Both the position numbers and the translations under genes were made by a program. This document shows, piece by piece, positions 1,857-63,396 of a stretch of 64,000 nt of DNA (the stretch's first letter is position 1; every line of letters starts with the position of its first letter). The notes beneath the pieces are model-generated. The model had not been told where the DNA came from. It made no database searches and saw only the letters and a program-made list of their open reading frames with translations. The stretch is from Actinomadura sp. 6K520 (GTDB lineage: Bacteria > Actinomycetota > Actinomycetes > Streptosporangiales > Streptosporangiaceae), in contig NZ_SMLC01000005.1 of the NCBI RefSeq assembly GCF_004349245.1, positions 1 through 64,000 of the forward strand. Direction: 5' to 3'.

Positions 1857-1888
1857 GGGGCCCGGGGGTCTTGCCGCCCCCGGGCCCC
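1857..1888 (-). terminator. 12-bp GC hairpin downstream of the permuted tRNA unit
   Basis: Perfect 12-bp inverted repeat (1857-1868 with 1877-1888) around an 8-base loop. It lies just after the second tRNA-like element in the minus-strand direction and before the lytic transglycosylase start. It has no T-run, as is common for actinobacterial terminators. It probably ends the transcript carrying the tRNA-like genes. Confidence 0.6.
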
Positions 1889-1939
1889 TGTGGTTGCCGC
1901 CCAATTCGCACGCCGGCACATGGATGGACGCGGATCAGC

Positions 1940-2016
1940 CTCAGACCGTCGCGCGTTTCCGTTACGCCATCGCCCTCCGAGCAGAGCGAGCCGGATTCGA
2001 ACCGGCATCTCGACGG
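1940..2016 (-). tRNA. circularly permuted tRNA-like gene, Gln (CUG)-like
   Basis: On the minus strand the 3' half comes first: anticodon-stem 3' strand CGTCG (2015-2011), 4-base variable loop, T-arm GCCGG/CCGGC around TTCGAAT (2006-1990), and acceptor strand TCGCTCT (1989-1983). A six-base linker (1982-1977) leads to the 5' half: acceptor AGGGCGA (1976-1970), T8 G9, D-arm GCGT/ACGC with G18 G19 (1967-1953), G26, and anticodon stem CGACG (1951-1947). T33 is at 1945 and anticodon CTG at 1944-1942. Acceptor pairs 7 of 7 (one G-U), D 4 of 4, anticodon 5 of 5, T 5 of 5. In normal order no acceptor stem forms. G73, G2-C71, G10, U35, G36 and A37 resemble Gln identity bases. No CCA is encoded. The permutation is seen directly; function and ligation of the halves are inferred. 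Confidence 0.75.
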
Positions 2017-2087
2017 TTTCCGTCCACGTCCGCGCGATCCGGCGATCGGCGGCGAATGCTGAGTCTGGAGCGAGAATCTGAGGTTGA

Positions 2088-2169
2088 GCGGGCGGCCGCC
2101 TCTACCTGTTGGGCTACCCCGGCGCGGGTGCCGGGGGCGGGACTCGAACCCGCACTGTGTCGCGCACCC
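2088..2169 (-). tRNA. second circularly permuted tRNA-like gene (identity unresolved)
   Basis: Same swapped layout as the downstream element. The 3' half has T-arm GCGGG/CCCGC around TTCGAGT (2153-2137), acceptor strand CCCCGGC (2136-2130), discriminator A and CCC (2129-2126). After a six-base linker the 5' half starts with GCCGGGG (2123-2117), which pairs 7 of 7 with that acceptor strand. Then come T8 A9 and a D-arm with GCC/GGC and G18 G19 (2114-2098). The anticodon arm is less clear. CTCAA at 2088-2084 would fit a CAA anticodon, but the best stem (2096-2090 with 2162-2169) needs a bulge and a G-U pair. It may be a true tRNA with an odd anticodon arm, or a tRNA-like structure that is not aminoacylated. 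Confidence 0.55.
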
Positions 2170-2181
2170 TGGTCAGCTTCG

Positions 2182-2233
2182 GCTTCAGCTTCAGCTTGCG
2201 CTCCTCGCGCACCCCCCGCGCAGCGGCGGGGGG
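2182..2233 (-). other. structured 5' flank of the permuted tRNA unit
   Basis: Between the hypothetical gene and the first tRNA-like half lie an 8-bp hairpin (2233-2226 with 2219-2212), a second small hairpin (TGCGC/GCGCA, 2211-2197) and the start of a run of four GCTGAA-like hexamers (2195-2172). Bases 2204-2199 (GGAGCG) can pair with 2072-2067 (CGCTCC), downstream of the first 5' half. The hexamers continue the pairing with 2075-2089 (CTGA with TCAG, TGA with TCA). The flanks may therefore fold together and hold the open ends of the permuted tRNA close to each other. Confidence 0.4.
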
Positions 2234-2294: not shown

Positions 2295-3029
2295 TCACCC
2301 GAACAGGTAGCCGAAGACCGCCTCACCGACGCGCTGGTCGGTGACCTCGGTCCCGTTGGCCTCCTCGCGGGCGAACTTGACCGCGTCCTGCAGCCGCTCG
2401 ACGCGGCCGAGCAGCTCGTTCACCCGCCTGGCCGGAAGCGCGCCCGAGAACTTCACCGTCGTCCAGTGGCCGACGCTCACGTCCTCGTAGTACACCTCCA
2501 CCTGGGCCGGATGGTTCTCGGTCGCCTCCGCCTTGACATGGTTGCGGGGCACCTTCTTGGTCTTCACCGTCCGGACCGCCTCGGTGCGCCACACGTCGGT
2601 GGACGGGTCGAACGTCCACGTCTCCGCGGCGTCCAGCACCGGCAGCTTCTTGACGAACGTGTGCAGGTCCTTGAGCTGCTTCTCCAGGAAGAGCAGGTAG
2701 GAGACCGGGACGTCGCGCAGGAGCGTCGTGCCGTCGACAGTCACGTCGGCGCGGGCGACGCAGTTCGCCCAGTCCTTGGTGGCGGTGACGTCGAACAGCC
2801 GCGTCAGCGAGGCCGTCACGTCGCGCAGGACGTCGTCGACCTTCACCTGGACGCGGGTCGACTCGGCCGGCAGTTGCTCGCCCTCCTCGTCCTTGGGCTG
2901 GTAGGTCCGTGAGATGCCCGACAGCAGCGGGGCCTTCTGGACCGAATGGTGCGCGGCGGTCAGGTCCTGGAAGGACTTGCTCTTGACGCCCTTCTCGACC
3001 GCGATGATCTGGTTCAGCTTCGTCGGCAC
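2295..3029 (-). CDS. conserved hypothetical protein next to permuted tRNAs
   Basis: A soluble 244-residue protein, mixed charge, without signal peptide or membrane segment. I recognise it only as a conserved actinobacterial hypothetical family. Notable stretches are the N-terminal MPTKLNQIIAVEKGVK, the segment TRLFDVTATKDWANC, SYLLFLEKQLKDLHTFV (likely helix) and the basic patch KTKKVPRNHVKAEAT. The start is GTG at 3029 with a GGGGAG ribosome site 8 bases upstream. It is followed on the same strand, after 60 to 120 bases, by the two permuted tRNA-like genes, with no promoter-like gap between them. It may therefore act on or with those RNAs. No catalytic motif is visible, and this functional link is only inferred from position. 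Confidence 0.75.
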   Translation of the reverse strand: MPTKLNQIIAVEKGVKSKSFQDLTAAHHSVQKAPLLSGISRTYQPKDEEGEQLPAESTRVQVKVDDVLRDVTASLTRLFDVTATKDWANCVARADVTVDGTTLLRDVPVSYLLFLEKQLKDLHTFVKKLPVLDAAETWTFDPSTDVWRTEAVRTVKTKKVPRNHVKAEATENHPAQVEVYYEDVSVGHWTTVKFSGALPARRVNELLGRVERLQDAVKFAREEANGTEVTDQRVGEAVFGYLFG

Positions 3030-3093
3030 CCCGTCACTCCCCTCGATGCACGATGACGCTAACAGCCCCTGATCGCCATATCACCGCGTTTTT

Positions 3094-4710
3094 CTACATG
3101 GGTCCTGCTTCGGTGAGGCCCGCCGTGCGGTCCATGTGCAGCCGGCGGGTGATGCCCAGGGTGCGCAGGAACGGCACGTCGTGACTGGCCACGATGAGCG
3201 CGCCCTCGTAGGCCGCGAGGGCCTGCGCGAGCTGCGCGGCGCTCGCCAGGTCGAGGTTGTTGGTCGGCTCGTCCAGGAGCAGCAGCTTCGGGGCCGGTTC
3301 GGCGAGCAGCAGGGACGCCAGCACGGCGCGGAACCGCTCGCCGCCCGACAGCGTGCCCGCCCGCTGCTCGGCCCGCGCGCCGCGGAACAGGAAGCGCGCC
3401 AGCCCGGCCCTGATCCGCGCCTGCGGCACCGACGGCGCCTGCGCGCGGACGTTGTCCAGCACGCTCAGCTCCTCGTCGAGGACGTCGAGCCGCTGCGGCA
3501 GGTACCGGACACCGTCCACCCCGATCCTGACCGCCACCCCCTCCTGGACGCGGTCGCCGACGATCGTCCGCAGCAACGTGGTCTTCCCCGAGCCGTTCGC
3601 ACCCTCCAGCGCGATCCGCTCCGGACCCCGGACGATCAGCTCGGACAGCGTGCCGGCCGCCGGCTCGGGCGCCGAAAGGCCCGTCACGGTGAGGACCGTC
3701 CGGCCGGCCGGGACGCGGGTGGCGGGCAGCTCGATCCGGATCTCCGCGTCCTCCCGGACCGCCTCCTCCGCCTCGGTGAGCCGCGTGCGGGCGTCGGCGA
3801 GCCGTTCCTCGTGCATGATGCGGTGCTTGCCGGCCGACTCCTGCGCCTGCCGCTTGCGCGCGCCCATGATGATCTTCGGCTCGCGTTTGCTCTCGTACAT
3901 CTTCTTGCCGTAGCGCTGCCGTCTCGCCAGCTTGACGTGGGCGTCCTCCAGCTCGCGTTTCTGGCGGCGCAGGTCGGTCCCGGCGGCCCGGACCGCCCGC
4001 TCCGCCGCCTCCCTCTCCACGGCGAGCAGTTCCTCGTAGGCGGACAGGTTCCCGCCGAACGACCGGATCGCGCCGTCGCGCAGGTCGGCGATCTCGTCGA
4101 CGCGGTCGAGCAGTTCCCGGTCGTGGCTGACGACGACGAGGACGCCCGTCCAGGACCCGACGGCGTCGTACAGGCGGTGCCGGGCGTCCAGGTCGAGGTT
4201 GTTGGTCGGCTCGTCCAGCAGCAGGACGCCGGGGCGGGCGAGGAACAGCGCCGCGAGCGCGACCATCACCGCCTCGCCGCCCGACAGCGTGCGGACGGTC
4301 CGGTCCAGGCCGAGGTGGGCGAGGCCGAGCCGGTCGAGCTCGGCGCGGGCGCGTTCCTCGACGTCCCAGCCGTCCCCGACGGCGGTGAAGTTCTCCTCGG
4401 TGGCCTCGCCGCGCTCGATGGCGTGCAGGGCGGCGCGCGTCGCGCTGATCCCGAGCAGGTCCGAGACCGTGGCGGTGTCGTCCAGGACGAGGTTCTGCGG
4501 CAGGTAGCCGATCTCCCCCTCGACGGACACGGTCCCCGACCGGGGTCGCAGCTCCCCCGCGATGATCTTCAGCAGGGTGGACTTGCCGGAGCCGTTGACG
4601 CCGGTCAGGCCCGTCCGGCGGGTGCCGAACGCGGCGTCGAGACCGTCGAGGACGACGGTGCCGTCCGCCCAGGCGAACGACAGGCCCGAGCACACGATGG
4701 CGAATGACAT
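3094..4710 (-). CDS. ABC-F ATPase, ribosome-protection type
   Basis: 538 residues with two ABC ATPase cassettes in one chain and no membrane segments, the mark of ABC-F proteins, which act on the ribosome. Walker A is GVNGSGKST near residue 38 and GANGSGKTT in the second half. Both halves have LSGGE signatures and LLLDEPTNNLDL Walker B motifs. A charged inter-domain linker of roughly 80 residues lies between them. The start is ATG at 4710, with GGAGG at 4720-4716. The protein continues past a more upstream possible start only in a non-family extension. The long structured leader (see 4791-4900) suggests drug-induced attenuation, as known for antibiotic-resistance ABC-F genes. Which drug is unknown. 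Confidence 0.88.
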   Translation of the reverse strand: MSFAIVCSGLSFAWADGTVVLDGLDAAFGTRRTGLTGVNGSGKSTLLKIIAGELRPRSGTVSVEGEIGYLPQNLVLDDTATVSDLLGISATRAALHAIERGEATEENFTAVGDGWDVEERARAELDRLGLAHLGLDRTVRTLSGGEAVMVALAALFLARPGVLLLDEPTNNLDLDARHRLYDAVGSWTGVLVVVSHDRELLDRVDEIADLRDGAIRSFGGNLSAYEELLAVEREAAERAVRAAGTDLRRQKRELEDAHVKLARRQRYGKKMYESKREPKIIMGARKRQAQESAGKHRIMHEERLADARTRLTEAEEAVREDAEIRIELPATRVPAGRTVLTVTGLSAPEPAAGTLSELIVRGPERIALEGANGSGKTTLLRTIVGDRVQEGVAVRIGVDGVRYLPQRLDVLDEELSVLDNVRAQAPSVPQARIRAGLARFLFRGARAEQRAGTLSGGERFRAVLASLLLAEPAPKLLLLDEPTNNLDLASAAQLAQALAAYEGALIVASHDVPFLRTLGITRRLHMDRTAGLTEAGPM

Positions 4711-5023: not shown

Positions 5024-7509
5024 TCAGGCGCCGCGCAGGACCGCGCCGGTGCGGTCGGACGCGGACGCCACGGCGGCGTCGCGGGCCCGCGACGCCTCCT
5101 CGGCGGTGAGGGTGCGGTCGGGCGCGCGGAACCGGAGGGCGTAGGCGAGGGACTTGCGGCCCTCGCCCACCTGCTCGCCGGTGTAGACGTCGAACAGCCG
5201 GATCGCCTCCAGCAGCTCGCCGGCGCCGGCGCGCAGCGCCGTCTCCACCGCGGCGGCCGGCACCGAGGAGTCGACGACCAGCGCCACGTCCTGGGTGGCG
5301 ACCGGGTAGCTCGACACGTGCGGCGCGCGGACCGTCGCGGGCTCGCCCAGGCGGCGCAGTTCCAGCTCCATCGCGCAGGACCGCGCGGGCAGCCCGTACG
5401 CCTTGATGGTGCGCGGGTGCAGCTCCCCGGCGTGGCCGACGAGGGTGTCGCCGGCGTAGAGCGCCGCGCAGCGGCCCGGGTGCCAGGGGGCGTGCTGGTC
5501 GGCCCCGGCCGTCAGCTCGACGCCGACCTCGCGGGCCACCGTGCGGGCCGCCTCGATCGCGTCCGCCCACAGCGCCGGGCGGCCCCCGCCCCACCAGCCG
5601 GACGGCTCCCGGTCGCCCGCCAGGACGACGGCCACCCGGTACGGCTGGTCCGGCAGCACCGCCTCGAGAGCCGCCAGCTCCTCCGGCGTCGGACCCCGGT
5701 CGACCGCCAGGCGCGGCGCCCGGCCGGCCGCGCCCGGGCGCGGCCGGAACACCACGCCCAGCTCGTAAAGGGCGGTGTCGCCGAAGCCGCGTCCCACGTT
5801 GAGCGCCAGCACCTTGAGCAGGCCGGGCAGCAGCGTGGTCCGCAGCAGCGGCTCCTGCTCCGACATCGGGTTCGCGAGGCGCAGCGTCCGGCGGCGGGCG
5901 TCGTCCCCGGGAAGCTGGAGGCCGTCCAGGTCCTTGTCGGCGACGAACGGGAAGGTCAGCGCCTCGACGTAGCCGGCGCCCGCGAGGGCGCGGCCCACGC
6001 GGCGGCGCAGCCGCTGCTGGACGGTCAGCCCCTTCCCCGCGACCGGGCGCGGGGCGCGGGCCGGGATGTCCTCGTAGCCCTCCAGCCGGATGACCTCCTC
6101 GGCGAGGTCGTTGGGGTCGGTGAGGTCGGGCCGCCAGGACGGCGGCGTCACCGCCAGCGTCCCGTCCCCCCCGACCGTGCAGCCGACCTGCTCCAGGCGG
6201 CGGACGACCGCGTCCCGCCCGTAGGTCACTCCCGCGACCCGGTCGGGGTGGCCGGCGTCCATCGTGACGGTGACCGGCTCGACGGGCGCCTCGGCGTGGG
6301 TGACGCCCGGCACGACCTCCGCGCCGCCCAGCTCCGCCAGCAGGCGGACCGCGCGGTAGGACGCGTACAGCGGCAGCTCGCGGTCGACGCCGCGCTCGAA
6401 CCGGTAGGACGCCTCGCTGTGCAGCCGGTGGCGGCGGCTCATCCGGGCGGTGCCGATGTCGTCGAAGTGCGCCGCCTCGATGACCATGTCGGACGAGCGG
6501 TCGTCGATCTCGGTGGCGAGGCCGCCCATCGTGCCCGCCATCGAGATCGGGCCCGACTCGTCGGTGATGAGGATGTCCTCGGGGTCCAGGTCCCGCGTGA
6601 CGTGGTCGAGCGTCTCCAGCTTCTCGCCGGACGCGGCGCGCCGCACCACGATCGGGCCGGTCAGCTTGTCGCGGTCGAAGGCGTGCAGCGGCTGGCCGAG
6701 CTCCAGCATCAGGTAGTTGGTGATGTCGACGGCCAGGGACACCGGGCGCATCCCCGCGCGGTGCAGGCGGACCCGCATCCACATCGGGGTCGCCGCGTCC
6801 GGGTCGAAGCCGCGCACCTCGCGCAGCACGAACCGGTCGCACGCGGACGGGTCGGCGATGCTCGCCGGGTAGGCCCCCCGGCCGTCCTCCGGCCCCCGCG
6901 GCAGCTCCACGTCGGCGGGGTCCCGGAACGGCACGCCGTAGGCGGTCGCGGCCTCGCGGGCGATGCCGCGGATCGACAGGGCGTAGCCGCGGTCGGGGGT
7001 GACCGCGATGTCCAGGACGTCGTCGCGCAGGCCGAGCAGCTCGATGGCGTCCGTGCCGACGGGCGTGTCCCGCGGCAGGACGAGGATGCCGCTGTGGTCC
7101 TCCCCGATGCCCAGCTCGCTGACCGAGCAGATCATGCCCTCGGACACCCGGCCGTAGGTCTTGCGGGCACCGATCTCGAAGCCGCCGGGCAGCACGCCGC
7201 CCGGCAGGATCACCACGACATGGTCGCCGGCGGCGAAGTTGGTGGCGCCGCACACGATGTTCTGCGGCTCGCCGGTGCCGTTGGCCTGGCCGACGTCGAC
7301 CTGGCAGTAGCGGATCGGCTTCTTGAAGCCGGTCAGCTCCTCCACCGCCAGGACCTCGCCGACGACGAGGGGGCCGGTGATGTCGGCACCGGCCCGCTCG
7401 ACGGTCTCGACCTCCAGGCCCGCCGCGATCAGCTCGGCGGCCAGCGCGCGGCCGTCGACGCCGGCCGGGAGCTCCACGTACTCGCGCAGCCAGGAAAGCG
7501 GGGCCCGCA

Positions 7510-7510
<1 letters not shown>
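5024..7510 (-). CDS. pheT: phenylalanine--tRNA ligase beta subunit
   Basis: 828-residue beta chain of the heterotetrameric (alpha-beta)2 enzyme that charges tRNA-Phe. The order is as expected: N-terminal [12 protein letters not shown], an EMAP/OB tRNA-binding domain ([16 protein letters not shown] region, about 115-150), B3/B4 editing domain, B5 domain, the catalytic-like core and a C-terminal FDX-ACB domain near residues 730-825. The start at 7510 is set by the family N-terminus and by the TGATG overlap with the pheS stop, which implies translational coupling. The reading frame is open a further 89 codons upstream, but that part lies inside pheS and is a shadow. Confidence 0.97.
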
Positions 7511-9896
<2,386 letters not shown>

Positions 9897-63192: not shown

Positions 63193-63396
63193 TTAGAGCG
63201 GGGAGACGCCCTCGGCCTGCGGGCCCTTCTGGCCCTGCGTGATCTCGAACGAGACACGCTGGTTCTCGTCCAGGCTGCGGTAGCCGTTGGTGGCGATCGC
63301 CGAGTAGTGGACGAACACGTCCGGGCCGCCGCCGTCGGGCGCGATGAACCCGAAGCCCTTCTCGGAGTTGAACCACTTCACGGTGCCTTCGGCCAT
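63193..63396 (-). CDS. cold-shock protein (CspA family)
   Basis: 67 residues, one OB domain with RNP1 KGFGFIAP and RNP2 VFVHYSAI. It binds single-stranded RNA or DNA. ATG 63396 gives the standard N-terminus [15 protein letters not shown]. The 193 bases upstream hold no further gene and probably an extended 5' leader, as is usual for csp genes, but I saw no clear cold-shock box. Confidence 0.95.

Follow-up and report, generated by a model that had tools for sequence, protein, structure and literature searches.

Y RNAs are reportedly encoded near Ro60 in bacteria and phages, as Chen et al. are said to have described in 2014. According to PMC8394870, the bacterial RNA YrlA consists of a large stem, formed from both ends and bound by Rsr (Ro60), and a transfer RNA (tRNA)-like domain with acceptor, D, and T arms, to which PNPase binds. 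Permuted tRNA genes are sequentially composed of a 3′ half, a short intervening sequence, and a 5′ half, as stated in PMC3978253. The locus described here lies in a 64,000-nucleotide (nt) stretch of Actinomadura sp. 6K520 (assembly GCF_004349245.1, contig NZ_SMLC01000005.1, positions 1–64,000, forward strand), hereafter the window. The first-pass annotation had read part of it as a permuted Gln(CUG)-like tRNA gene. The permuted layout stands, being beyond chance and shared by homologues, but the identity as a tRNA gene for Gln(CUG) does not. The locus is probably a YrlA-like, Ro60-independent twin tRNA mimic partnered with the protein DUF7873.

Two permuted tRNA-like units, A and B, occupy the same intergenic gap directly downstream of the DUF7873 gene and are 145 nt apart. 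Unit B had been overlooked in the first pass. The locus would encode a non-coding RNA about 350 nt long, probably as one transcript, in which module B is followed by module A. Each module would contain a T-arm and 3′ acceptor strand, a short capping loop (6 bases in the window), a 5′ acceptor strand, and a D-arm, with a flank-made stem in the place of the tRNA anticodon stem. The units were scored with R1, a covariance model built from 22 tRNAs of the window genome rotated in silico. The main features are as follows.

1941–2016, minus strand: unit A, tRNA-like and permuted (ARAGORN on the joined halves, R1; the T, acceptor, and D helices covary)
2006–1990, minus strand: unit A T-arm
1989–1983 and 1976–1970, minus strand: unit A acceptor strands
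1982–1977, minus strand: unit A linker loop, GCTCGG
1967–1953, minus strand: unit A D-arm
2016–2011 with 1951–1946, minus strand: unit A inner stem, taken for an anticodon stem in the first pass
2086–2164, minus strand: unit B, tRNA-like and permuted (R1, 43.7 bits; acceptor covariation in 7/7 pairs)
2153–2137, minus strand: unit B T-arm
2136–2130 and 2123–2117, minus strand: unit B acceptor strands
2129–2124, minus strand: unit B linker loop, ACCCGC
2114–2098, minus strand: unit B D-arm, 3 base pairs
2295–3029, minus strand: DUF7873 gene, 244 amino acids, directly upstream of the RNA (Pfam PF25283, E 4.5e-121)

The placement and permuted order of the parts of unit A at 1941–2016 are as first proposed. 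From the sequence rejoined in silico (5′ half, A, 3′ half), a tRNA-Gln(ctg) is called by ARAGORN, with an acceptor stem of 7/7 pairs, including one G-U, a D stem of 4, an anticodon stem of 5, and a T stem of 5. The tRNA fold at this site is reached in permuted order only. ARAGORN detects no tRNA in the raw window, and no Rfam family reaches its gathering score there. A strict permuted-tRNA descriptor finds unit A as the sole site on both strands of the 115.6-kb contig and finds no site in 20 shuffles of it (4.7 Mb) that kept base composition within 100-nt blocks. Loosening the T-loop adds one contig site and gives 11 sites in the shuffles. Unit B fails the strict descriptor because of a mismatch in the “anticodon stem” and the lack of U33.

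With R1, unit A scores 50.6 bits (E 2.2e-14) and unit B 43.7 bits (E 4.5e-12), and the third-best match in the window has only 6.9 bits. Unit A also ranks top in the whole window genome, where the two units are the two best matches. The score alone is no proof, since ordinary tandem tRNAs score too, at 41.1 bits in the window genome and 69–70 bits for the Lys-Lys repeats of relatives. A search for the same layout elsewhere yields many homologous permuted copies. Neither a shuffle-level score, nor a lack of homologues, nor a normal-order tRNA, the outcomes named beforehand as evidence against a permuted layout, was encountered. A third T-loop-like string, at 63364–63374 on the minus strand, has no R1 match around it and is taken as chance.

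Pairing in permuted order is supported by covariation. Among 138 DUF7873 loci, 70 have two units at a fixed distance, and 40 of these are left at one per 90% identity. The alignment (A4) has 35 rows, comprising the window, 13 viral loci, and 21 genome loci. It omits L121, L219, L233, L237, and L252, and the window replaces L119. L219, L233, L237, and L252 were dropped as hard to align (long-linker or A+T-rich), an omission that favours structure, and L232 aligns poorly. A smaller alignment (A5, 31 rows) also leaves out L208, L223, L225, and L232. RNAalifold proposes 48 pairs on A4, 42 of them with compensatory change.

The two permuted acceptor helices, one in each unit, display both-side change in 14/14 pairs. 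Their cells are paired in 97.6% of cases, compared with 40.8–54.3% after a slide of one to three columns. The covariation of these helices is 0.642 against 0.170 when shuffled, and none of 500 shuffles reaches it. Thus, both acceptor helices pair in permuted order. Unit A together with its T-arm, D-arm, basal, and outer stems shows both-side change in 27/29 pairs, with 96.0% of cells paired. The earlier “anticodon stem” runs on via an internal loop into a stem formed by the flanks, whose strands are listed below. Basal stem X has both-side change in 7/7 scored pairs and 89.3% of its cells paired.

2039–2044, minus strand: outer stem 5′ strand, CGCCGG, pairing with 1911–1916 (covariation, both-side change in 5/6 pairs)
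1911–1916, minus strand: outer stem 3′ strand, CCGGCG (covariation)
2023–2031, minus strand: basal stem X of unit A, 5′ strand, GGACGTGGA, pairing with 1926–1934
1926–1934, minus strand: basal stem X of unit A, 3′ strand, TCCGCGTCC (covariation)

The RNA also has a fixed neighbourhood. The window pair belongs to a third class of permuted units (class III) that adjoins DUF7873; the gene is likewise present at all 11 of the other class III loci identified first. Among 65 Actinomadura genomes, DUF7873 is present in 50 and TROVE in 36; 25 genomes carry both, 25 DUF7873 alone, 11 TROVE alone, and 4 neither. A unit follows DUF7873 in all 50 DUF7873-bearing genomes. An R1 match lies 85–295 nt past the gene on the same strand in 41 of them, and the other nine (9/9) also have the unit.

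A set of named genomes comprises 80 loci kept from 527 DUF7873 relatives (14 Actinomadura, 65 Streptomyces, and one Streptantibioticus). R1 matches follow DUF7873 in 80/80 of these loci. With ordinary tRNAs removed, the strict descriptor places a unit after DUF7873 in 79/80 loci, 41 of which have two, whereas the upstream and shuffled controls each give 0/80. At G060:C6:195276–196005, DUF7873 is matched in two pieces and may be frameshifted; the RNA units remain. Deinobacterium chartae is the only one of 14 control genomes that matches both DUF7873 and TROVE.

A second covariance model (R2) represents unit A with its basal stem and was built from the 31 sequences of A5. DUF7873 occurs in 7 of 396 genomes of the phylum, in two of 237 genera. 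Among the matches listed, the seven R2 matches of 65.1–104.2 bits fall in exactly these seven genomes and sit just downstream of DUF7873. The next match listed has 58.1 bits, and the separation consists only of this gap between 65.1 and 58.1 bits. Class III unit A copies score 81–100 bits with R2, compared with at most 51.8 bits for the units of Ro60-linked loci.

The pair also occurs in mobile elements. DUF7873 is found in 73 of 50,697 phage records, 4 plasmid-collection records, and 58 viral contigs. The strict descriptor detects a unit downstream of the gene in 44/58 viral contigs, 15 of them with two; the controls give 1/58 upstream and none when shuffled. In seven of the eight annotated records scanned with R1, DUF7873 is followed by a unit at most about 600 nt away. 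These records are Arthrobacter phage Mimi, Rhodococcus phage NiceHouse, Klebsiella phage KpLz-2_45, Gordonia phages Phendrix and Ziko, Pseudanabaena phage PA-SR01, and a Streptomyces plasmid. The unit overlaps a small annotated reading frame in Ziko and PA-SR01.

Rfam gives 41 matches at gathering score in ten DUF7873 loci; all are tRNA, tRNA-Sec, or transfer-messenger RNA (tmRNA), and none lies at the units. Ordinary tRNAs are present within 30/58 viral and 14/80 genome loci, and some phage copies of the RNA stand inside large tRNA clusters. This placement suggests that the RNA takes part in conflict over tRNA or translation. In the Phendrix locus (L267), DUF7873 and the two units are embedded among over 25 clustered tRNA genes, and a tmRNA match is found at 3069–3597. 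Four contigs of the window genome (C84, C407, C419, and C27) carry small clusters of low-scoring extra tRNAs, possibly of mobile origin, which include Leu tRNAs without a long variable arm.

Further elements are found in the flanks of the units.

2212–2233, minus strand: G+C-rich hairpin CCCCCCGCC..GCGGGGGG, between DUF7873 and unit B (read in the sequence)
2173–2197, minus strand: conserved 5′ block AAGCTGAAGCTGAAGCCGAAGCTGA, ahead of unit B (alignment A4)
2056–2082, minus strand: conserved block CTCAGATTCTCGCTCCAGACTCAGCAT, between units B and A (alignment A4)
1860–1888, minus strand: G+C-rich inverted repeat GGGGCCCGGGGGCGGCAAGACCCCCGGGCCC, possible 3′ end of the RNA (read in the sequence)

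In A4, conserved blocks stand before, between, and after the units. The block after unit A, TTAAACG, is kept even in A+T-rich phage copies but not in the window copy. Hairpins like that at 2212–2233 precede unit B in many, not all, homologous loci, and inverted repeats comparable to that at 1860–1888 come after unit A in many. No ribozyme was evident when the flanks were viewed by eye, and Rfam gave no ribozyme match. The constant position of the unit, always downstream of DUF7873, on the same strand and at 85–295 nt in the 41 genomes, would also be expected of an element acting in cis within the 3′ part of the DUF7873 messenger, which would control stability or autoregulation and borrow a tRNA-like fold rather than be a free RNA. 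This explanation is improbable. The relatives of the fold are free RNAs according to PMC8394870. The conserved blocks and the inverted repeats at both ends also suggest a discrete RNA, although they weigh little in either direction.

The fold of the units conforms to the YrlA plan. D, T, and acceptor arms are arranged in permuted order on a flank-made stem, as in YrlA (RF02553, a partner of Rsr/Ro60), and both are short RNA genes beside a protein gene. The Rfam YrlA model matches window unit B with 25.8 bits (E 0.0039), below the 69-bit cut-off. It gives 29.7–56.3 bits in 10/10 other sources tested, all below the cut-off, and 29.7–45.8 bits in two class III loci. However, the window RNA differs from YrlA in having two modules, whose order is constant and which are framed by conserved blocks. 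It also scores below the family cut-off, is linked to DUF7873, and is present in genomes without a TROVE match.

Comparable to the window units are the many permuted units that R1 detects across Actinomadura, often in arrays spaced about 145 nt apart. The raw count (61/65 genomes) was set aside, as it includes ordinary tandems and Ro60-linked units. Among the first 30 loci (L069–L098), L074 consists of two ordinary Lys genes, and ARAGORN also calls a normal-order tRNA from the flank and the 3′ part in L072, L073, L088, L093, and L096. The arrays of classes I and II have one downstream reading-frame group common to 29/31 loci compared; 7/7 of the frames scanned are TROVE/Ro60, and an eighth protein in the scan, an upstream neighbour, is a helicase. 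The units of classes I and II are permuted, often arrayed at about 145 nt, and have pairing flanks, as in the window. They differ from the window units in their flank sequences and in adjoining TROVE genes.

A complete anticodon hairpin, with U33 in a loop of 7 nt, is present in 13/41 class I units and in 0/24 class III units. The class I hairpin triplets are those of Pro, Met, Ile, Gly, and Ser, and class I units are a closer mimic of tRNA than YrlA as described. Class I arrays (L072, L073, L076, L080, L082, L083, L091, and L092) contain three permuted units in the order b-c-a; an anticodon arm is apparently missing from c, the middle one. A TROVE gene follows these arrays where scanned (L072, L075, and L080).

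The shared plan of the window RNA and the Ro60-linked units of the genus, together with the weak YrlA matches, raises the alternative that the locus encodes an ordinary Y RNA of Ro60, left behind or served by Ro60 supplied elsewhere, with DUF7873 as a mere neighbour or accessory. Half of the DUF7873 genomes of the genus (25/50) do carry TROVE. The other 25, including the window genome (a draft, 97.2% complete), give no TROVE/Ro60 match. The RNA adjoins DUF7873, the R2 scores set its unit A apart from the Ro60-linked units, and the strong R2 matches in the phylum follow DUF7873. An ordinary Ro60 partner is therefore unlikely.

In tmRNA, the acceptor end is free and can be charged, and a reading frame encodes a tag. 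The acceptor of the window units, in contrast, is capped by a short loop, and neither ARAGORN nor Rfam gives a tmRNA match at the locus. The two are alike in being bacterial RNAs that mimic part of tRNA.

A true circularly permuted tRNA gene is highly unlikely. Its transcript would be cut in the flanking stem and joined into a circle, for example by RtcB, and RNase P and tRNase Z would open the circle to release tRNA-Gln(CUG). Unit A does place the 3′ half before the 5′ half with a short intervening sequence, and all stems form. The joined halves give a perfect cloverleaf, and the six-base linker is within the 1–74 bp known for permuted tRNA genes (PMC3978253). An imperfect drawing resembling a bulge-helix-bulge is possible at the junction, which was viewed by eye only. 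In addition, RtcB is present in the window genome, making ligation of a cut RNA possible, a point that also counts against the mimic.

The decoding end of the supposed tRNA is not maintained. Position 33, the second base past the “anticodon stem”, is U in 7/35 aligned homologues, and the triplet is CTG in 2/35; a decoding loop with a conserved anticodon is thus lacking. In unit B, U33 is missing and the corresponding stem contains a mismatch. The tRNA splicing endonuclease EndA (PF01974) has no match in the window genome or in any of the 65 Actinomadura genomes; the same search matched 4 of the 14 control genomes, all archaea. An ordinary tRNA-Gln(ctg) gene is present in the window genome (L037), and the fixed link to a protein gene and the flank-made stem likewise argue against a tRNA gene. 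The Gln(CUG) identity given in the first-pass annotation was rejected on these grounds, and the RNA is probably not processed into a tRNA.

The half order of the window locus recurs in the permuted tRNA genes known from Thermofilum pendens and from red and green algae (PMC3978253). The window locus differs from them in lacking a conserved decoding loop and EndA, and in having two units and a fixed protein-gene neighbour. No report of a circularly permuted tRNA in actinobacteria was found in the accessible literature, with subscription papers mostly outside the search. Chance, or debris of tandem tRNA genes, can be dismissed despite the R1 scores of ordinary tandems, because the acceptor strands pair within the unit and covary across many lineages, and the descriptor finds nothing in the shuffled contig or in the 80 upstream controls.

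Several observations weigh against a YrlA-like mimic partnered with DUF7873. The structure was derived from the same alignment in which its pairs were counted, which favours it. R2 was trained on the window and its relatives, so that its telling part is the lack of strong matches elsewhere, and at least 168/396 phylum genomes have some R2 match at E ≤0.01. The YrlA cut-off is reached by no locus tested. The strict descriptor leaves 14/58 viral loci without a unit, and R1 detects none past DUF7873 in Vibrio phage D517; some phages therefore lack the RNA or carry a version too diverged for these models. TROVE genes are also held in 3/58 viral DUF7873 loci. The lack of TROVE in the window genome is not absolute, as the draft consists of 445 contigs. 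The viral contig L236 (4971–8058) contains DUF7873 and the RNA, more R1 matches at 6130–6572, and TROVE at 6631–8058, and thus both systems in one phage; L255 and L257 likewise have TROVE.

In a Pfam scan of the window protein, DUF7873 is the sole match and no TROVE profile is detected. A confident AlphaFold2 model based on 58 sequences has a predicted local distance difference test score (pLDDT) of 93.5 and a predicted template modeling score (pTM) of 0.70, and contains long helices and β-strands. No solved structure was found by sequence search, and Foldseek gave no match at E ≤0.001 in PDB or BFVD. Among the VIA-align matches listed, the best is 3kdq_A, to which no function is assigned (Z 9.9, root mean square deviation 7.8, 146 aligned), and none is a Ro60 chain. 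PHROGs and PADLOC gave no match for three DUF7873 proteins. An informative relative thus emerged from neither the sequence nor the fold searches, and none of the papers found, with partial coverage and few subscription titles, names DUF7873.

The linkage suggests that DUF7873 takes the place of Ro60 as the partner of the twin mimic. Most likely, by analogy with YrlA, DUF7873 would hold the RNA by its conserved blocks or the stems of the flanks, and the pair of tRNA-like heads would recruit or occupy a tRNA-handling enzyme. The latter step is proposed because tRNA-modifying enzymes act on YrlA, which also binds PNPase. The RNA may act as a decoy for tRNA nucleases or as a nuclease tether; any single function is held less firmly than the identity of the RNA as a YrlA-like mimic partnered with DUF7873. 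In phages, the mimic would serve conflicts over tRNA or translation.

A wider proposal is about evenly balanced between holding and failing. DUF7873 and the twin-mimic RNA would form a Ro60-independent ribonucleoprotein system of actinomycete, Klebsiella, and cyanobacterial phages, often placed among tRNA genes, that has been adopted by Streptomyces and Actinomadura. Its heads would capture or shield against tRNA-handling enzymes, such as anticodon nucleases or PNPase, in phage–host conflict. Y RNAs that mimic tRNA are already known; the doubled form tied to a non-Ro60 protein and shared with distant phages would be new. The searchable papers, which cover the literature in part, yielded no description of such a doubled mimic and no paper on a Streptomyces Y RNA with Ro60 or on a permuted tRNA linked to Y RNA.

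Bacterial Y RNAs have been described as Ro60 partners, and here a doubled Y-RNA-like mimic accompanies another protein. The mimic and DUF7873 occur in bacteria and in phages whose hosts span three phyla. A screen of bacterial genomes for permuted tRNA genes will also return tRNA-mimic RNAs of this kind. DUF7873 gains a testable partner, and the question is raised why phages carry tRNA mimics beside their own tRNA genes.
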